Source of the DNA: Acidobacteriota bacterium
GTDB taxonomy: Bacteria; Acidobacteriota; Vicinamibacteria; Vicinamibacterales; Vicinamibacteraceae
Length of the DNA: 64,000 nt
NCBI GenBank assembly: GCA_020845575.1
Contig: JADLFL010000012.1
Coordinates: 62,001-126,000 of the forward strand
Direction: 5' to 3'
Within the stretch, counting starts at the first letter, position 1. Every line of letters begins with the position of its first letter. The translations under genes were made by a program, and so were the position numbers. The notes beneath the pieces were generated by a model. That model was not told where the DNA came from. It saw only the letters and a program-made list of their open reading frames with translations, and did not search any database. Positions 16,857 through 64,000 of the stretch are shown piece after piece.

Positions 16857-18101
16857 ATGCTTCGAGCCACTCTACTCGTGCTTGTGTTCGCACCGGCGCT
16901 CCTGGCCCAGACCAGCTACGACCTGCTGCTGAAAGGCGGCCACGTCATCGATCCGAAGAATGGCATCAATGCTCTGATGGACGTGGCGGTGAAGGACGGG
17001 AGGATCGCCCGCGTGGCGGCGAACATCCCGGCCGCCGACGCCACCAGGGTGGCGGATGTGACAGGGCTGACGGTGACGCCTGGACTGATCGACATCCACG
17101 TACACGTCTATCAACGGCCCGACAACAGGGCCATGGCACGGGACAGCAACGTGCAGGCCGACGCGCACACGTTCCGCAGCGGGGTGACGACGATTGTGGA
17201 CGCGGGCTCATCCGGATGGCGGGACCTGCCGGAGTTCCGCAGGCGCGTCGTGGAGAAGTCACGGACGCGGGTGCTGGCGTTCGTGAACATCTCCGGCTCC
17301 GGCATGGGACTCGACAAGGAGGATGACCTCGGCGAACTGGATGTCGAAGCGACAGTGCGCGCCGTGAAGGAACACCGTGACATCGTCGTGGGCATCAAAT
17401 CGGCGCATTTCGGCGGCCCCGGCTGGGAGTCGATCGACGCGGCCGCCAGGGCGAGCCGGGCCGTCGAGATGCCGGTGATGGTGGACTTCGGCTATATGAA
17501 CGACGTCCGCAACCTGACCGGTCTTCTTGCTGACAAGTTGCAGCGAGGCGATATCTACACGCACTGTTATTCCGGGCATCGTGAGGAGCTGCTTCAGGAC
17601 GGCAACATCAATCCGGCGATGTTCACCGGCAGGAAGCGAGGCATCTTCTTCGACGTCGGGTTCGGCGCAGGCAGCTTCTATTGGTATGTCGCGGCTCCGG
17701 CGCTGCAGCAGGGCTTCCCACCGGACTCGATCTCCACCGATCTTCATACGGGCAGCATGAACGCCGGCATGAAGACGATGAACAACTCGATGTCTTCCGT
17801 GCTGAACCTTGGCGCCTCCCTCGCGGACGTGATCGCCATGTCCACCTGGAATCCGGCGAGACAGATCAAACGTCCCGAACTGGGCCACCTCGATGTCGGC
17901 GCCGGAGCCGACATCGCCGTGCTCCGTGTAGACGAAGGGCGGTTCGGATTCGTCGACTCCGCCGGTGCGGTGTATCCGGGCCGTCAGCGGATTGTCACCG
18001 AGCTCACGATCCGGGACGGGCGCGTGGTCTGGGATCTCAACGGCAGGACCAGCACGAGCTGGAAGGAGTTCCCGTACGACAGGAAGAAGTGGACGAAGTA
18101 G
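16857..18101 (+). CDS. Secreted amidohydrolase/deacetylase-family metallohydrolase
   Basis: A 414-residue protein. The ATG at 16857 follows AGGTGAGG and gives a clear signal peptide (LRATLLVLVFAPALLAQ). Metal-site motifs follow the amidohydrolase order: LIDIHVHV (HxH, about 81-88), a likely carboxylated Lys in VVGIKSAHFGG, His in YTHCYSGHRE and Asp in STDLHTGSMN. Composite-domain strands frame the barrel (VIDPKNGINALMDVAVKDGRI; GAGADIAVLRV). It belongs to the amidohydrolase/deacetylase group, with the substrate unknown. It lies 194 bases downstream of the regulator, and I see no other signal in that gap. Confidence 0.87.
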   Translation: MLRATLLVLVFAPALLAQTSYDLLLKGGHVIDPKNGINALMDVAVKDGRIARVAANIPAADATRVADVTGLTVTPGLIDIHVHVYQRPDNRAMARDSNVQADAHTFRSGVTTIVDAGSSGWRDLPEFRRRVVEKSRTRVLAFVNISGSGMGLDKEDDLGELDVEATVRAVKEHRDIVVGIKSAHFGGPGWESIDAAARASRAVEMPVMVDFGYMNDVRNLTGLLADKLQRGDIYTHCYSGHREELLQDGNINPAMFTGRKRGIFFDVGFGAGSFYWYVAAPALQQGFPPDSISTDLHTGSMNAGMKTMNNSMSSVLNLGASLADVIAMSTWNPARQIKRPELGHLDVGAGADIAVLRVDEGRFGFVDSAGAVYPGRQRIVTELTIRDGRVVWDLNGRTSTSWKEFPYDRKKWTK

Positions 18102-18262
18102 ACCGTCGCCTCGCGCCGCCGCGCAGGCGAGGCCGTGAGCACGCGCGCGCTGTAGACGATGGAAACCCGACGAGCCGCCGCGAAAGTTCGTTAGGATGGA
18201 CTATCGCGCGCGTGCTCCCCGGCAGCAGCGTCGCAGGGATGCCACGGTAAGCAAGGTCCTTG

Positions 18263-19594
18263 ATGTCCGCCAAAGTCAAGCCAACGGTTCTCGTCGCCGA
18301 CAACAATCTCCATACCCGCATGACCACGACGCGGGTGCTCATGCGCGACTTCGACATGGAGGTGAGCGAAGTCACCAACGGGATGGACGCCATCGAGCGT
18401 CTCAGCACGCGGGCGTTCTCGTTCCTCGTGCTCGACCTCGATCTCCCGATGATCGACGGCCTCCGCGTGCTCGAGATCCTGCGCCAGGGGCCCGACGATG
18501 CGGCGATGCCGACAGTGATCATCGCCGAATCCCCTGACGAGAGCACGGTGCGCCGCCTCATCGAGCTCGGCGTCGGGGACCTGATCCTGCGCCCGGTCGA
18601 CCCGCGCGTGCTGAGCCAGCGGCTCGCCACGTTCATCCAGCGGCATCGACATGCGCTCGGGCGCGACGAGTACAAGGATGGTGGCAAGCTTGCCAAGCCC
18701 GGCGCCACGCGCGTGCTCATCGCCGACGGCGACGCGAACTTCCGCGAGTTCGTCGTGTCGACGCTTCGAGAGAAGGTGACGACCACGGAAGCCGAGACGG
18801 GCGTGGCCGCACTCAAGGCCTGTCTCGAGTCGCCACCGGATGTCGCCCTCATCGGACACGATCTCGGCCTTCTCAAGAGCGACCTGCTCGTGGCGGAGCT
18901 CCGACGCGTGCCCGCATTGCGGGGCACGCGCGTCGTGGCCATCGCTCCGCAGAATCATCTCGAGAGCGTGGTGAAGTCGGCCGCCTACGACGGCGTGCTC
19001 GTGCGGACGTACATTCCGAAGCTGTTCGGCGATCAGTTCGATCGCCTGCTCCAGCGGGCGGACGGCCTGAATCGCGCCCTGGCCCTGTATCCCGCGCTGC
19101 AGGCGCGGTTGACGAGCGCCGTCGAGCAGGTCTTCGGCATGATGCTCGGCGTCGACGTCACGCCGCTCGACGCGTCGCCGGGCAAGGAACGCGACGGAGA
19201 CGCGATCTCGTGCCTGGTCGAGATCGAGGAGCTCAGCGAGCAGCTGGTCCTGCAGTTCCAGCTCACCATGCCGTTGGAACACGCGCGATTTGCGGCTGCC
19301 AGGATGCTCGGGACCTCGGACGCCGTGATCACGCCCACCGAACCAGACGCAGCTGTCAGCGAGATCGCCAATATCATCACGGGCCGCCTGCGGACGGCGT
19401 TGAACGAGCGCGGCATCAGCGTCCGCTGCGGATTGCCGACGATCCGTCATCACGCCGTGCGCGGCTGGGCGCCACCCGCCGACGGCGACGCCATCGTCGT
19501 CTTCTTCGAGGCGCACGCGCACGACCTCTGTATCTGCACGACCCTGTCCGGCAGCAACGCCGCCGGCGACAGCTCGCCCGACACGCCCGCCTGA
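18263..19594 (+). CDS. Response regulator with two REC domains and a CheX-like phosphatase domain
   Basis: A 443-residue protein; ATG 18263 is preferred over TTG 18260, with AAGG upstream. REC1 (about 7-125) has the acidic pair in VLVADN and phosphoacceptor Asp58 in LVLDLDLPMIDG. REC2 (about 149-265) starts VLIADGDANF, but the phosphoacceptor position reads ALIGHDLGLL, so the Asp seems lost. Residues about 275-435 resemble CheX/CheC, with the signature Glu and Asn in VSEIANIITG (366-370). It is probably a signalling protein joining a receiver to an aspartyl-phosphate phosphatase. No kinase or chemotaxis genes are adjacent. Confidence 0.78.
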   Translation: MSAKVKPTVLVADNNLHTRMTTTRVLMRDFDMEVSEVTNGMDAIERLSTRAFSFLVLDLDLPMIDGLRVLEILRQGPDDAAMPTVIIAESPDESTVRRLIELGVGDLILRPVDPRVLSQRLATFIQRHRHALGRDEYKDGGKLAKPGATRVLIADGDANFREFVVSTLREKVTTTEAETGVAALKACLESPPDVALIGHDLGLLKSDLLVAELRRVPALRGTRVVAIAPQNHLESVVKSAAYDGVLVRTYIPKLFGDQFDRLLQRADGLNRALALYPALQARLTSAVEQVFGMMLGVDVTPLDASPGKERDGDAISCLVEIEELSEQLVLQFQLTMPLEHARFAAARMLGTSDAVITPTEPDAAVSEIANIITGRLRTALNERGISVRCGLPTIRHHAVRGWAPPADGDAIVVFFEAHAHDLCICTTLSGSNAAGDSSPDTPA

Positions 19595-19634
19595 TCGTCG
19601 TTCGTCCGCTTGACGCGGCGATCGCGCCGTGCCA

Positions 19635-19667
19635 CTGTCTCCACTATGTCAGCCAGTGGAGAGACAG
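19635..19667 (+). terminator. Weak hairpin downstream of REC-REC-CheX gene
   Basis: CTGTCT-CCACT pairs with AGTGGA-GAGACAG around a nine-base loop, with a two-base bulge. No U-tract follows. It may be a factor-dependent terminator or RNA-stability stem in the 250-base gap before the RidA gene; nothing else stands out in that gap. Confidence 0.3.
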
Positions 19668-19844
19668 GGCGTCTCGATCTGAAGTGCCTTGGGAGCAGGA
19701 TCTCACCACGTCGGCTGCCGAGATCGAGATCGCAAGGTTACCTGCTGCCGCTGGACGGGTGGAACTCTGGTATCCGGGACCGATCAAGCGGCATTTACGT
19801 GCACCCGAAGACGGGCGTGATTGGCCAACAGCGCCGGCCGCGCC

Positions 19845-21092
19845 ATGAACGCTGACGCCCTCGCCGCCATGCTGGCCGGTGCGCTGTCGGTCACGAGCGC
19901 GGCCGTGCTCGTCGCGCAGGCTCAGGTGCCGATACGAGTCATCTCGCCGCCGGGCACAACGGTTGCCGGGCCGTACAGTCCCGGCGTGTTCGCGGGTGGC
20001 TTCCTGTACGTGTCGGGGCAGGGTGGACGCGATGCGGACGGCCGGCTGCCGGACACCATCGAAGGCCAGGTGCGCCAGGCGCTGCAGCACGTGAAGGCCA
20101 TCGTGGAGGCCGGCGGGCTCACGATGGCGCATGTGGTGTACAGCCAGGTCTATCTGACAGACATGGCCGACCACGACGTGATGGACCGCGTGTGGCGCGA
20201 GTTCTTCCCCACGGCGCCGCCGGCGCGCGCGGTTCTCGGCGTGTACAGCCTGCCGGCCGGCATCGCCGTCGAGATCAACGCCGTCGCGTATCGGGACCTC
20301 GAAGGCAGGCGACCGATCGTCCCACCCGGATACCCGCCGTCGTGCTCGTGGTCGCCGGGCGTGATGGCCGGCACCCGGTTGTTCCTGTCGGGATCGCCTG
20401 GCGCCGACGTGGCGACGGGGCGCGTGCCGCCGGACCCCGACGACCAGGTGCAGCTCGCGCTCGACAACATGCGGCAGATCCTGGTCGCCGCCGGACTCGA
20501 CTTCCGTCACGTCGTGTTCGTGAACCCTTACATGACGAGCGCCGCCTCGCGCCGGATGAATCCCATCTACGCGAAGCACTTCGAGTTCGGCAACACGCCG
20601 GCGCGCGCGACCATCAACGTGACGAGCCTGCCAGGCGGCAACACGATCCAGTTCACGGGCGTGGCGATCGCCGACCTCTCGCGCCGCCGCGCGTTCAGGC
20701 CGAAGAACATGGCACCCAGTCCGACGGCGAGTCCGTGCGTGCTGGCCGACGACACCTACTATTGTTCGGCCAAGGGCCCGTTCACGCCTGGCCCCGCCAG
20801 ACTTCAGGGCATCTGGGTGGGCAGCGTCGATGCGCAGATCCGCCAGACGATGAGGAACCTGCTCGACGGGCTTGAAGAGGCAGGGCTGGCGCTCCCGAAC
20901 GTCGTCGCGACGAACGTGTATCTGGACGACATGGACGACTACGCGCGCATGAATCGCGTCTATGCCCAGTACTTCCCGGACAATCCGCCGACGCGGACGA
21001 CCATCGCGCAGGTGGCCCCGACCGACCGCACGTCCAGTAGCGGCGACACGTATCCAGGCCTCGAGCAGATTTCGCTGATTGGGGTGAAATGA
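19845..21092 (+). CDS. Secreted triple-RidA (YjgF/UK114) domain protein
   Basis: A 415-residue protein with a probable signal peptide (AAMLAGALSVTSAAVLVAQAQ). Three RidA-like domains follow, at roughly residues 30-145, 150-270 and 285-415. Each has the opening GPYSPGV / SWSPGVMAG / KGPFTPGP type, a GQVRQAL / DQVQLAL / AQIRQTM helix, and the key Arg in PPARAVLGV / TPARATINV / PPTRTTIAQ. Free RidA is a homotrimeric enamine/imine deaminase with active sites at subunit interfaces, so a single chain could fold as a pseudo-trimer. The terminal Glu of the motif is kept in domain 1 (AVEINAVA) but altered in domain 2 (IQFTGVA). No strong ribosome site precedes the ATG; TTG 19821 is an alternative. Confidence 0.82.
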   Translation: MNADALAAMLAGALSVTSAAVLVAQAQVPIRVISPPGTTVAGPYSPGVFAGGFLYVSGQGGRDADGRLPDTIEGQVRQALQHVKAIVEAGGLTMAHVVYSQVYLTDMADHDVMDRVWREFFPTAPPARAVLGVYSLPAGIAVEINAVAYRDLEGRRPIVPPGYPPSCSWSPGVMAGTRLFLSGSPGADVATGRVPPDPDDQVQLALDNMRQILVAAGLDFRHVVFVNPYMTSAASRRMNPIYAKHFEFGNTPARATINVTSLPGGNTIQFTGVAIADLSRRRAFRPKNMAPSPTASPCVLADDTYYCSAKGPFTPGPARLQGIWVGSVDAQIRQTMRNLLDGLEEAGLALPNVVATNVYLDDMDDYARMNRVYAQYFPDNPPTRTTIAQVAPTDRTSSSGDTYPGLEQISLIGVK

Positions 21093-21133
21093 CGTACGCC
21101 CCGAGATGCGGATCGCCCGCGCGGTTCCAGCGA

Positions 21134-22627
21134 TCAGGCGGGCAGCACGTTCGCGTTGAGGCGGAACAGGTTGTCCGGGTCGTACTGCTTCTTGACCGCG
21201 ACCATGCGGGGAAAGTTCTCTCGATAGTTCGCGTTCAGGACGGCGCGTGTCTCGTCGTTGACTTCGTTGATGTAGAAGCCGCTGGTCAAGGGCTCGATGG
21301 CTCCCCAGTACTTGCGCGCCCACCCCATGTGCGGCGCGCCATCGTCGCCGACCTTCCATGACACGGCGGCCATCAAGGCGTGTTGAGCATGGCGGTGCGG
21401 AAAAGCCGCCGCGCCGACCGGCTGCCTGCCGATGGCACCGCCGGCGTGCTGGGTGAAGACGGCGGTGGAGCGGACCGGATGTCCCTCGAACCCGTCGATG
21501 ATGCCGGAGATCAGTTGCTCGCTGATGCCGGTCGTGAACCCGCTCTTCATGTACTCGCCCATCCCGCGCACGTCGGTGTCGTCGCCCGAACGCTGGACGT
21601 CCACGTAGCGCTGCGCCTTGATCGTGTCGGCGATGGGCGTCCCGAGCGTGCGCAACGGCGCGAGGTCGCGATCGGCGTTGTCGCCGCAGTAGCAGACGTG
21701 CAGCAGTGCGATGCCGTCCTTGCCGCCGGGAGGCTGCGCCATGACGAAGTCCACGTAGACCTCGTCGGACGCCCTGGCGGAGAACTCGGCGTAGAAGCGC
21801 AGCACCTCGCGCGCCTTCGCGATCGGAAAGACCAGGTCGCCGGCCGTGACGGTGCCGCCGAACGGATGCAACTGGAACTCGAAGCTGGTGACGACGCCGA
21901 AGTTGCCGCCGCCGCCGCGTACACCCCAGTAGAGGTCGGCGTTCTCATCCTTGTCTGCGTGACGGACAGAGCCGTCGGCGCAGACCACGTCCACACCGAC
22001 AACGTTGTCGACAGCGAGGCCGTACCTGCGCGCCAGCCGGCCGAACCCGCCGCCCGTCGTGAGGCCGCCGACGCCGGTATGCGAGACCGTGCCGAGCGGC
22101 GTCACCATGCCGTCTGCCGCTGCTTCGTGATCGACGAGACCGAGCAGCGAACCACCCTCGACGTACGCACGCCTGGTCCTGGTGTCCACCCTGACGCCAC
22201 GCATGCCGGACAGGTCGATCATCATGCCCTTGTCGCACGTGGACAGACCCGAGAAGCTGTGGCCACCGCACTTCACGGCCACGAGCAGGCCGTGCGCGGC
22301 AGCAAAACTCACGGCCGTGCGGACGTCGGCGGTTCCAGTCGGCCGGACGATGAGCGCCGGACGCCTGTCGATCGCCGGGTTCAGCACGCGCCGGGCGGCC
22401 TCGTACCCGGGAGACGACGACAGCAGCGTCGGGCCACGGAGGCTTGCGGCCAGATCCTTGATGGCTGCCGCCGGCAACGTGACGGCACGACCGTCACCAC
22501 GCACCGCATCGAGATCGGCCATCGTCGCCGGTGCGGCCTGATATGCACGGCTGAACGCAAGGCGTGGGGCGAGCGGAACGAACCCGGCGACAGCCGCGGC
22601 CGACTGAAGGAATGCGCGTCGATGCAT
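21134..22627 (-). CDS. FAD-linked oxidase, berberine-bridge-like, Tat-exported
   Basis: A 497-residue protein starting HRRAFLQSAAAVAG, a twin-arginine-like signal. The FAD-binding_4 domain contains VAVKCGGHSFSG (His for 8-alpha linkage) and GVGGLTTGGGFGRLARRYGL. The C-terminal BBE segment is YDPDNLFRLNANVLP. In bicovalent relatives a Cys lies before GVGG (GTCPTVG type); here the stretch reads GTVSHTGVGG, so only single covalent attachment is expected. It probably oxidises an alcohol, sugar or phenolic compound with O2. It converges on the RidA gene and diverges from the vWA gene. Confidence 0.86.
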   Translation of the reverse strand: MHRRAFLQSAAAVAGFVPLAPRLAFSRAYQAAPATMADLDAVRGDGRAVTLPAAAIKDLAASLRGPTLLSSSPGYEAARRVLNPAIDRRPALIVRPTGTADVRTAVSFAAAHGLLVAVKCGGHSFSGLSTCDKGMMIDLSGMRGVRVDTRTRRAYVEGGSLLGLVDHEAAADGMVTPLGTVSHTGVGGLTTGGGFGRLARRYGLAVDNVVGVDVVCADGSVRHADKDENADLYWGVRGGGGNFGVVTSFEFQLHPFGGTVTAGDLVFPIAKAREVLRFYAEFSARASDEVYVDFVMAQPPGGKDGIALLHVCYCGDNADRDLAPLRTLGTPIADTIKAQRYVDVQRSGDDTDVRGMGEYMKSGFTTGISEQLISGIIDGFEGHPVRSTAVFTQHAGGAIGRQPVGAAAFPHRHAQHALMAAVSWKVGDDGAPHMGWARKYWGAIEPLTSGFYINEVNDETRAVLNANYRENFPRMVAVKKQYDPDNLFRLNANVLPA

Positions 22628-60875: not shown

Positions 60876-61379
60876 TCACGCGTCGGGCGTGTCGCGCGTG
60901 GGTGCGTCTTCGAGATGCGCTTTCAGCGCCGCCAGCGCCGCCAGCCAGCGCGTGCCCATCACGCGGTAGTAGCGTTGCCAGCGCGGACTGTCGTCGCAGC
61001 CGTTCTGGTGCACGCGCAGTCGCGTGCCGGTGTCGATCGGTTCGCACGTGACGTCCAGCGCCATCGGCCCGACCGGATCGCCCTTGGGCGGAATCCAGTA
61101 CGCGTCGGCGAGGAAGAACTCGCGGCCGGGGCGTACGTCGATGACCATGCCGTAGAACGTGCCGCCGAACGGACCGATCAGGGGATCGGCGCCGGCGTCG
61201 ACCGGCCACTCCACGGCGAAGACACCGAGCGGCGTCGGCGTGGTGACCGAGCCGCATGTGCCCCACCACGCCCGCAGCGCCGACGCATCGAAGAAGGCCG
61301 CGTGGACGGCCTCCGGCGGCGCGCCTATCTCGATGGATGCGTCGAACGTCGATGGGTCGGGCGACGCGGCGGCGCTCAT
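60876..61379 (-). CDS. SRPBCC (AHSA1-like) domain protein
   Basis: A 167-residue protein from ATG 61379. The fold pattern is typical: FDASIEIGAPPEAVHAAFFD, RAWWGT, GGTFYGMVIDVRPGREFFLADAY and RLRVHQNGCDD, followed by a helix with RYYRVMGTRWLAALAALKAHLE. These are ligand-binding proteins, many stress-linked; the ligand is unknown. Its start faces the leader of the threonine-family operon, so the 60-base gap contains both promoters. Confidence 0.82.
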   Translation of the reverse strand: MSAAASPDPSTFDASIEIGAPPEAVHAAFFDASALRAWWGTCGSVTTPTPLGVFAVEWPVDAGADPLIGPFGGTFYGMVIDVRPGREFFLADAYWIPPKGDPVGPMALDVTCEPIDTGTRLRVHQNGCDDSPRWQRYYRVMGTRWLAALAALKAHLEDAPTRDTPDA

Positions 61380-61439
61380 GGCGCCGGAGTATGACACGCG
61401 GCGGCTCTTGCCAGGCGGCCGGCGTCGCGGCTACGCTAT

Positions 61440-61532
61440 ATGACCGTGACGCGCCGCACCACCATCATTACCGTGACCACTCGAAAGCGGGAACTCGATT
61501 CCGCGCGCGGGTGGCTCGTGTACGCGTCCTGA
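61440..61532 (+). CDS. Thr/Ile-rich leader peptide
   Basis: A 30-residue reading frame, MTVTRRTTIITVTT followed by RKRELDSARG and six more residues. Of its first 14 residues, seven are Thr and two are Ile. No Shine-Dalgarno sequence is obvious; GTG 61446 is an alternative start. Its stop codon lies 103 bases upstream of asd. The content is what a threonine-attenuated operon needs: ribosomes would stall here when charged Thr-tRNA is scarce. Confidence 0.75.
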   Translation: MTVTRRTTIITVTTRKRELDSARGWLVYAS

Positions 61533-61605
61533 GCTCGACAAGCTCTCATTCACAAGCGTACGTGCACCACGAGAACCCGCCGCGCGGCCCGCGCTGGCGG
61601 GTTTT
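61501..61605 (+). terminator. Attenuator: terminator with competing antiterminator
   Basis: AACCCGCC (61574-61581) pairs with GGCGGGTT (61596-61603), followed by a T-run, giving an intrinsic terminator 30 bases before asd. The upstream segment CCGCGCGCGGGT (61501-61512, inside the leader peptide codons) can pair with 61575-61587, with one bulged base, and would remove the 5' arm of the terminator. The pairing region lies about 20 bases beyond the last Thr codon. Confidence 0.78.
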
Positions 61606-61635
61606 GTCGTTGATGGCGGACGAAACGAGGATTCG

Positions 61636-62682
61636 ATGTCGTCTCGAGTAGAAGTGGGCGTGCTCGGTGCCACGGGCACCGTGGGCCAACAGTTCGTGAG
61701 GTTGCTGGCGCGGCATCCGTGGTTCGACGCCACCTGGCTGGCCGGCAGCGACAGGTCGGCGGGCCGGCCGTATGGTGAGGCCGCGAACTGGAAGCTCTCC
61801 ACGCCGATGCCTGACGCCGCGGCGGCGCGCGTCGTACAGTCGCCGGTGCCGGGTACCGGCCCGAAGCTGGTGTTCTCGGCGCTCGACGCCAACGTGGCTG
61901 GCGAGATCGAACGCGCCTTCGCCGAAGCCGGACACATCGTGGTGAGCAACGCGCGCAACCACCGGATGGATCCGCTGGTGCCGCTGCTCATCCCGGAGAT
62001 CAACCCGGATCATCTCCAGTTGCTCGCACGGCAGCGCACCGACTACGGCTGGAAGGGCGGCATCGTCACCAACTCCAACTGCTCGACGATGTTTCTGGCC
62101 ATGGCACTGGCGCCGTTGCGGACGTTCGGCCTGACGTCGTGCAACGTCGTGACGTTGCAGGCCGTGTCTGGCGCCGGCTATCCCGGCGTGCCGTCGCTGG
62201 ACATCCTCGGCAACGTCGTCCCGTTCATCGGCGGCGAGGAAGAGAAGCTCGAAATCGAGCCGCAGAAGATCCTCGGCGGCCTCGCCGGCGATCATGTCGA
62301 GCCGCATCCCGTAGTCATCAGCGCGCACACCACCCGCGTCCCCGTCATCGACGGCCACACGGAGATGATCTCGATCGACTTTGCCAACGCTGTTGCGGCG
62401 GCCGACATCCGTGCGGCGTTCGCCGCGTTCCGGGGAATTCCGCAGGAACTTGCGTTGCCGTCGGCGCCCGCGCAGCCGCTGGTCTATCTCGAAGCCGACA
62501 ATCGCCCGCAGCCGCGCCTCGACGTCGAACGCGACAACGGGATGGCCGTGTTCCTCGGCCGTCTCCGACCCTGTCCCGTACTGCAGCACAAGTTCGTGGC
62601 GCTCGGCCACAACACGGTGCGCGGCGCGGCCGGCGCCGCGCTGCTCAACGCCGAGTTGATGCAGGCGCAAGGCCTGCTCTGA
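61636..62682 (+). CDS. asd: Aspartate-semialdehyde dehydrogenase
   Basis: A 348-residue protein. The NADP fold opens with GVLGATGTVGQQFVRLL (about 8-24). The catalytic Cys is in NSNCSTMFLAMALAPL, and the base and substrate loop is in SAHTTRVPVIDGHTE. The longer fungal/archaeal-type form (DILGNVVPFIGGEEEKLEIE) is used rather than the short Gram-negative form. It reduces beta-aspartyl phosphate to the semialdehyde, the branch point to Thr, Met, Lys and Ile. The leader and attenuator directly upstream control it. Confidence 0.94.
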   Translation: MSSRVEVGVLGATGTVGQQFVRLLARHPWFDATWLAGSDRSAGRPYGEAANWKLSTPMPDAAAARVVQSPVPGTGPKLVFSALDANVAGEIERAFAEAGHIVVSNARNHRMDPLVPLLIPEINPDHLQLLARQRTDYGWKGGIVTNSNCSTMFLAMALAPLRTFGLTSCNVVTLQAVSGAGYPGVPSLDILGNVVPFIGGEEEKLEIEPQKILGGLAGDHVEPHPVVISAHTTRVPVIDGHTEMISIDFANAVAAADIRAAFAAFRGIPQELALPSAPAQPLVYLEADNRPQPRLDVERDNGMAVFLGRLRPCPVLQHKFVALGHNTVRGAAGAALLNAELMQAQGLL

Positions 62683-62691
62683 GGTGTCGCC

Positions 62692-64000
62692 ATGGTCGTG
62701 ATGAAGTTCGGCGGCACGTCGGTCAAGGATGCCGATGCCATCAGGCGCCTCGCCGGCATCGTCTCGCGCGAAAGCCGGGTGAGCGGCGCGCCAGTGGTAG
62801 TGGTGTCGGCGATGTCGGGCATCACGGATCAACTGCTGGATGCCGTGGCGGCGGTGGAGCGCGGTGATGCGGCGGGCGCGTCACTGAAGGTGAACGCGAT
62901 GCGCGACAGACATCGCGCGGCGGCCGAAACCCTGCTCGGTGCCGGTGAGGAGCGCGACATCGTCATCGACGCGCTCGAACGGCAGTGGCGCGACACGGCG
63001 TCGCTGCTGCACGCGATGGCGGTCCTGCGCGAGGTCTCGCCGCGATCGCGCGACGCCGTTGTCGCGATGGGCGAACTGGCCAGTTCGCGACTGGTCGCGG
63101 CGGCACTCACCGATCTCGGCGTGCCGGCGCAGTTGGTCGACGCGCGTGAGGTGCTCGTCACGAGCGATGAGCACGGACAGGCGCGACCGGATCAGGCGTC
63201 GACCGCGGCGCGCCTCCGCGATCTCGTGCTGCCGCTCTCGCGTACCGGCGTGGCAGCGGTGCTCGGCGGCTTCATCGGCGCCACGCGCGAAGGCGTGACG
63301 ACGACGCTGGGGCGTGGCGGTTCGGACTACTCGGCATCGCTGTTCGGTGCAGGGATTGGCGCGGCAGAGATCCAGATCTGGACCGACGTCGACGGCATGC
63401 TCACGGCGGATCCCCGCGTGGTGCAGGGCGCGCGTCCGCTCCTCGCGCTGTCGTTCGCGGAGGCATCCGAGCTTGCGTACTTCGGCGCCAAGGTGCTGCA
63501 TCCGAGCACGATCGCGCCGGCGGTCACCGACGGCATTCCGGTGCGCATCCTCAACTCGCACAGGCCCGACGTGGCGGGCACCACCATCACGGCGAACCCG
63601 CCGCTGCCCGACGCGCCGCTCACGGGCCTTGCGTGCAAGCGCGACATCACCGTCATCGACATCCGATCGTCGATGATGCTCGCGGCCTACGGCTTCATGC
63701 GCCGAGTGTTCGAGGTGTTCGAACGCTATCGCACATCCGTCGACGTCATCACCACGTCGGAAGTGAGCGTGTCGATCACGATCGAAGACCGTCGCGCCCT
63801 CGACGACATCGTGAGCGACCTCTCCGCGTTCGCGGAGGTTGGCGTCGAATCGGAAATGGCGCTGCTCTGCGCCGTCGGCGAGCGGCTGCGTCTGGAACCC
63901 GGCCTTGCCGCGCGCGTGCTCGGTGCGCTCGACGAGTTCCCGCTGCGGATGGTGTCGCAGGCGGGTGCCCGTCGCAACCTCACGGTGGTGTTGCCGCAGT
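62692..64000 (+). CDS. lysC: Aspartokinase (class resembling E. coli LysC), partial
   Basis: At least 436 residues, open at the window edge; ATG 62692 is preceded by GAGGTG. The kinase part shows VVMKFGGTSVKDAD (start), VVVVSAMSGITDQLL, TTLGRGGSDYSASL (about 204-217), IQIWTDVDGMLTADPRVV and ASELAYFGAKVLHPST. ACT domains follow from about 310 (ITVIDIRSSMMLAAYGFMRRVFEVFERYRTSVDVITTSEVSVS). The match is to the lysine-sensitive E. coli LysC subgroup, although the leader signals Thr/Ile. A bifunctional extension cannot be excluded past the edge. Confidence 0.92.
   Translation, partial: MVVMKFGGTSVKDADAIRRLAGIVSRESRVSGAPVVVVSAMSGITDQLLDAVAAVERGDAAGASLKVNAMRDRHRAAAETLLGAGEERDIVIDALERQWRDTASLLHAMAVLREVSPRSRDAVVAMGELASSRLVAAALTDLGVPAQLVDAREVLVTSDEHGQARPDQASTAARLRDLVLPLSRTGVAAVLGGFIGATREGVTTTLGRGGSDYSASLFGAGIGAAEIQIWTDVDGMLTADPRVVQGARPLLALSFAEASELAYFGAKVLHPSTIAPAVTDGIPVRILNSHRPDVAGTTITANPPLPDAPLTGLACKRDITVIDIRSSMMLAAYGFMRRVFEVFERYRTSVDVITTSEVSVSITIEDRRALDDIVSDLSAFAEVGVESEMALLCAVGERLRLEPGLAARVLGALDEFPLRMVSQAGARRNLTVVLPQ

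Follow-up and report, generated by a model that had tools for sequence, protein, structure and literature searches.

What controls the expression of asd, the gene for aspartate-semialdehyde dehydrogenase, at the right end of a 64,000-nucleotide stretch (the window) from a 4.57-Mb Acidobacteriota genome? From the sequence alone, the original prediction placed a Thr/Ile attenuation device of the Escherichia coli thrL kind ahead of asd and an aspartate kinase gene. Our analysis keeps the attenuator but does not support reading it simply as a Thr/Ile regulator of a Thr pathway. Judging by the anatomy of the locus, its conservation, lineage-specific complementarity, operon content, and modeled folding logic, it is probable that a ribosome-mediated transcription attenuator controls an asd-lysC-dapB-dapA-dapD-dapE operon. 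The principle of the device is an ordinary one, and its conservation is real; what is unusual is the phylum, the target operon, the probable near-leaderless layout, and an apparent retargeting of the sensor codons.

Leader translation, ribosome stalling, and termination are predicted to proceed as follows. RNA polymerase would begin transcription very close to the start codon of the leader, with a ribosome following it and translating the leader. Should charged tRNA be scarce for the Thr/Ile codons or for the TTRKR Lys codon, the ribosome would stall before its front edge reached 61501; 61501-61520 would then pair with 61568-61587, the 5′ arm of the terminator would be captured, and transcription would read through into asd. 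With plentiful amino acids, a ribosome at the stop codon (61530) would cover the antiterminator strand, the 61574-61603 hairpin would form, and transcription would end.

Leader ORF and predicted transcript start

The plus-strand segment 61440-61532 encodes MTVTRRTTIITVTTRKRELDSARGWLVYAS, 30 codons of which 9 of the first 14 specify Thr or Ile, as originally described. This composition is moreover unique: in a six-frame scan of the whole window, at least 9 Thr/Ile per 14 open codons occurred at the leader site only (2 overlapping segments out of 107,040). The frame itself thus stands, while its start probably shifts from ATG 61440 to GTG 61446, leaving 28 codons; the in-frame upstream ATG would prepend MT to the leader. 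The GTG is favored because the start codons of congeneric leaders (GTG or ATG) align there and because the hexamer TACGCT begins 14 nt before it, the distance being 15 to 17 nt in relatives; TACGCT begins only 8 nt before ATG 61440. Coordinates of all features are collected in Table 1.

Among the 51 leaders having a TATACT-like hexamer (at least 5 of 6 positions), 39 have it beginning 15 to 17 nt before the start codon, a distance at which the transcript 5′ end would lie no more than a few bases from that codon. At the window locus, TACGCT occupies the place of the relatives' TATACT, and transcription is predicted to start at ∼61444; the leader is probably leaderless or near-leaderless. Taken by itself, the window promoter call is weak: a consensus promoter scan reported no promoter upstream of the window leader, and congeners L004 and L005 show no clear −10 box at that place. 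To the left of the leader lies a minus-strand ORF (60876-61397) that diverges from asd, so the terminator can act only on transcription toward asd and serves no upstream gene.

Table 1. Features of the asd leader region and the genes that follow it (window coordinates)
Feature	Position	Strand	Details
Candidate promoter	61408..61437	+	−35-like TTGCCA 61408-61413, 18-nt spacer, −10-like TACGCT 61432-61437
Leader peptide ORF	61446..61532	+	GTG start likely; VTRRTTIITVTTRKRELDSARGWLVYAS; TGA 61530-61532
Sensor region	61458..61487	+	ACC ACC ATC ATT ACC GTG ACC ACT CGA AAG (Thr, Ile, Lys)
Antiterminator 5′ strand	61501..61520	+	Within final leader codons; RNAduplex, swap test
Antiterminator 3′ strand	61568..61587	+	Includes terminator 5′ arm
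Intrinsic terminator	61574..61605	+	Arms 61574-61581 × 61596-61603, U tract 61602-61605, then GTCGTT
asd, aspartate-semialdehyde dehydrogenase	61636..62682	+	TIGR00978, 436.5 bits, above cut-off
lysC, aspartate kinase	62692..64000, past window end	+	TIGR00657, 328 bits, above cut-off

Terminator and antiterminator at the window locus

The pairing of 12 bp with one bulge between the late leader codons and the 5′ arm of the terminator was predicted again as first described (61501-61512 with 61575-61587), and it is lengthened by pairing of 61515-61520 with 61568-61573. The segment 61500-61590 folds at −43.2 kcal/mol (z = −3.46; equaled by 0 of 200 shuffles), and RNAduplex gave −36.8 for the two antiterminator strands, compared to −25.4 for shuffled sequences (0 of 100 as good). 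The terminator hairpin, which carries an additional inner stem between its outer arms, folds at −28.2 kcal/mol over 61568-61612 (z = −3.77; 0 of 200 shuffles as good), and 61586-61603 was matched by a terminator scan.

The hairpin was originally described as an 8-bp stem followed by TTTT. The stem is as described; the U tract is shorter than claimed because the first two T residues already lie in the 8-bp stem. It can be read as TT after 8 bp or as TTTT after 6 bp, is longer in most relatives, and counts against the attenuator reading. The 5′ untranslated region of asd (61606-61635) may leave room for translational effects.

Conservation of the device across Vicinamibacterales

The window genome and its congeners probably belong to the genus Luteitalea of the family Vicinamibacteraceae. 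Of 162 genomes from the order Vicinamibacterales, 109 yielded asd, and a leader followed by a terminator precedes it in 63 of 91 upstream regions (2 of the 91 are truncated). Families f8 and f14 are without such a leader before asd; their upstream sequence resembles the end of an aspartate kinase gene, as alignment confirms in one case.

Retention of the Thr codons and the stem in close relatives was the point on which the original prediction had made itself vulnerable. The leaders of the congeners read (V/M)TR.T.IITVTTRKRELDSARGWLVYAS or similar, and the four congeners keep their Thr/Ile content despite a varying order of the two residues and a codon-sized indel, which preserves the leader frame; the length of the spacer varies freely. 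Identity among the four congeners is 97.7% in the 3′ half of the leader and 93.3% in the terminator, compared to 69.0% in the spacer, 62.6% in the upstream region, and 63.3% at third codon positions of asd.

Automated leader picks L127 and L141 (wrong) and L130 (unclear) were excluded from the tests reported below.

Operon content

The naming of asd and aspartokinase was correct. The best model for lysC is "lysine-sensitive aspartokinase 3," with a score just below its cut-off. Beyond the window, the operon goes on with dapB (score just below cut-off), dapA, dapD, and a dapE-like gene assigned as ArgE/DapE family, and this continuation makes it a lysine/diaminopimelate (DAP) operon. The hom-thrB-thrC operon of the same genome lies on another contig and has neither a leader nor a terminator before it. 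A second aspartate kinase is located within that operon (G000:C36, about 17100-21900; L214, L215, and L222). Among 18 fetched loci with a leader from families other than f4, 17 have dapB and dapA after asd; the contig of the 18th ends after lysC.

Family f4 is organized otherwise. In the three f4 genomes (L041, L042, and L044; L228 to L230), the genes after asd-lysC are hom, metY, and metX in two cases and hom and metX in the third; one of these metX genes was assigned by resemblance only. The f4 leader is rich in Met (z = 7.9) and reads ...MRMMAMRMTSIGG... or similar. The asd-lysC-hom-(metY)-metX arrangement seems to be a methionine operon with this same device in control.

Which amino acid is sensed

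Compared to shuffled sequences, leaders of the window genus are enriched in Thr (z = 5.5), Ile (z = 4.0), and Lys (z = 3.5), and those of families f5 and f2 are enriched in Lys (z = 10.9 and 9.3) and Thr (z = 5.2 and 5.1); the values for the order as a whole are inflated, since the script that picked the leaders gave credit for RK, for a −10 box, and for Thr, Lys, Ile, and Met residues; the window leader was found independently of the script. Within the order, the Thr/Ile-rich form is that of the window genus. The sensor motif common to the order is instead CGA-AAG (Arg-Lys), often accompanied by Thr, with the conserved Lys codon 9 to 19 codons before the stop, most often 13. What the order keeps throughout is a CGA codon followed by a Lys codon. 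The window leader retains this pair as part of TTRKR, and we read it as a combined Thr/Ile plus Lys sensor. Across most of the order, the common sensor would be Lys, usually with Thr; in the window genus, where we infer which amino acid matters most, it would be mainly Thr/Ile; and in the single methionine-operon family it would be Met.

The pair CGA-AAG is near invariant in the leaders (61482-61490 in the window, and relatives). A conserved pause hairpin as the explanation of CGAAAG is not supported: across the order, the strand after the Lys codon pairs to much the same extent as in shuffles (0.51 and 0.49, respectively). Such a 1:2 hairpin is common in attenuators of this kind, but we did not count it as a defining feature.

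An attenuator sensing lysine alone through CGA-AAG, with the Thr/Ile run of the genus tolerated or tuning translation speed, would suit several of these observations: the operon product is lysine/DAP, the conserved sensor residue is Lys, the aspartate kinase resembles the lysine-sensitive type, and the f10 leaders are rich in Lys with little Thr (z = 7.1 compared to 1.1). We nevertheless regard it as rather unlikely, given that Thr and Ile are strongly enriched in the four congeners despite their changed order. Sensing of Thr/Ile makes sense as well, given that the operon provides Lys/DAP directly and, by way of Asd, also Thr, Ile, and Met.

The Met-rich leader of f4, together with its hom-met operon, suggests that the leader amino acid tracks the operon product, a contrast that rests on one family. 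There is, in our judgment, about an even chance that a single ancestral leaderless attenuator on asd arose in Vicinamibacterales and that its sensor was retargeted among Lys, Thr/Ile, and Met along with the operon product (dapBADE versus hom-metYX), including lysine- and methionine-sensing kinds for which we found no description and a near-fixed CGA before the sensor Lys. The device recurs in at least 10 families of the order and so gives a direct view of how sensor specificity evolved, with the leader amino acid appearing to follow the operon product. It also suggests that leader peptides regulate lysine/DAP and methionine operons, a task that riboswitches perform elsewhere (PMC1262725). The prediction is testable in a named species, Luteitalea pratensis.

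If the leader were instead a small functional or arrest peptide (R-K...RKR plus a variable tail), its sequence would matter rather than codon charging. The R-K-R motif is indeed kept across families in both peptide and nucleotides, and CGA directly precedes Lys 72 times in the leaders, compared to 26 CGA among 212 Arg codons in asd. Against this, the sensor part varies by lineage (Thr/Ile, Lys, and Met), and the sequence of the tails goes with the antiterminator strand required to match each terminator, which makes the peptide explanation improbable.

Complementarity and folding logic

The remaining evidence for the ribosome-mediated attenuator concerns its RNA. The antiterminator strand pairs with the terminator 5′ arm better than shuffles do (no more than 5 of 100 as good) in only 34 of 63 leaders, with a mean z of −1.8. 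Alignment-based folding within families (alifold on truncated alignments, with the helix partly recovered) gave almost no double-sided covariation, and a strand-swap test was therefore used instead. In this test, in which each of 14 lineage groups was represented by one leader, own pairs scored −18.8 kcal/mol and swapped pairs −16.2 kcal/mol (permutation P, median <1/500, maximum 0.042). The strands differ by lineage, e.g., GCGCGCGGGU with ACCCGCCGCGC, GUGUCGG with CCGACAC, and GUCGGCGG with CCGCCGAC, and complementarity has therefore been maintained through change.

Folding with a simulated ribosome, a check that had been proposed, supports a thrL-like geometry. In full transcripts of the four congeneric leaders, the terminator probability was 0.00, 0.36, 0.29, and 0.16 with a stalled ribosome and 1.00 with the ribosome at the stop codon. 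For nascent RNA that still lacks the 3′ arm, the modeled capture of the 5′ arm averaged 0.81 over 62 leaders when the last sensor codon was occupied by the ribosome (the stalled state), compared to 0.17 with the ribosome at the stop codon; capture was greater in the stalled state in 59 of the 62, and the shuffled control gave 0.45 (Wilcoxon P = 3e-9). At full-transcript equilibrium, a clean switch was seen in only 9 of 63 leaders. Because the terminator dominates in most, the choice there must be kinetic, made during transcription, and equilibrium folding of full transcripts was taken as support for the window genus only.

The strength of the terminator, which most leaders are predicted to form even when no ribosome is present, would also fit a plain constitutive premature terminator or 5′-end stabilizer with an incidental short ORF. 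This is very improbable in view of the unique codon bias of the leader, the codon-sized indel beside a spacer of free length, and the antiterminators matched across lineages.

Comparison with known systems

The locus presents what is expected of an attenuator: a small reading frame with many codons for amino acids that belong to the pathway under control, an intrinsic terminator between the leader and the first gene, and, in prediction, an exclusive antiterminator freed by a stalled ribosome and covered by one at the stop codon. It resembles E. coli thrL and the Rfam family Thr_leader (RF00506) in its Thr/Ile-rich leader, its competing antiterminator and terminator, and its aspartate-family operon. 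Unlike in E. coli thrL, the window-type leader probably starts almost at the transcript 5′ end, a Lys codon is kept in relatives, and the phylum is another. Membership in RF00506 was ruled out, as the covariance model gave no match and the operon is asd-lysC-dapBADE, not thrABC; the device does not lie upstream of thrA or a thr operon.

The lysine (L-box) and S-adenosylmethionine (SAM; S-box) riboswitches likewise exert RNA-level control of lysine and methionine genes (PMC1262725) but bind their metabolite directly, and they were not detected at the window locus. A metabolite-binding riboswitch or T-box is scarcely credible here even though the lysine riboswitch controls lysine genes elsewhere (PMC1262725), as no Rfam family matched the locus at gathering score, nothing plausible appeared at E values up to 10, and covariance model matches to RF00168 and T-box were absent.

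The closest precedent found is SEP5 of Sinorhizobium meliloti (Alphaproteobacteria), compared here by description rather than by sequence: in the passages that treat it, SEP5 is a translated small ORF (sORF) that contains six Thr codons and three Lys codons and lies in the 5′ untranslated region of an "aspartate dehydrogenase" gene, proposed as a leader peptide and untested (PMC10117765). That gene is probably asd. The same passages mention neither a terminator nor comparative evidence on the RNA nor a logic for the operon (PMC10117765). According to the passages describing them, the leaderless attenuators S. meliloti trpL (PMC10117765) and the mycobacterial polycysteine sORFs (cited in PMC13236596), the latter described as translation attenuation, have an ORF start at or near the 5′ end and an expression set by ribosome behavior on sensor codons, as is predicted for the window leader; they differ in the amino acid sensed, Trp and Cys, respectively.

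The original remark that such control is little documented in the phylum agrees with a survey in which predicted attenuators in Acidobacteria almost never had associated functions (PMC2965389). In the open-access literature, we found no paper on the asd leader device of Vicinamibacterales and no described leader-peptide attenuator for lysine or methionine; most subscription papers lay outside this search, so priority cannot be claimed.

Occurrence outside the order

A matching leader-terminator device was absent from 40 asd upstream regions of other Acidobacteriota families. The exception outside the order is L104 (Acidobacteria group 2 AA87, about 470-640), where leader MRITSMSTTSTTTMGTIAASGEWRS and a terminator stand before asd. 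The L104 leader is of a Thr/Met/Ile kind (MKSIPSMRITSMSTTSTTTMGTIAASGEWRS), with TAGTCT 15 nt before its ATG. In L119, from Candidatus Peribacteraceae, two tandem Thr/Lys leader-terminator units precede asd (about 2200-2470): the first consists of MTRARITTVTTKRAPEAS and then AGCAACC..GGTTGCTTTTTTT, the second of MDETRTTATKTTTKPP and then ACAACC..GGTTGTTTTTT. By their sequence, these tandem units are a possible double attenuator in a bacterium of the candidate phyla radiation.
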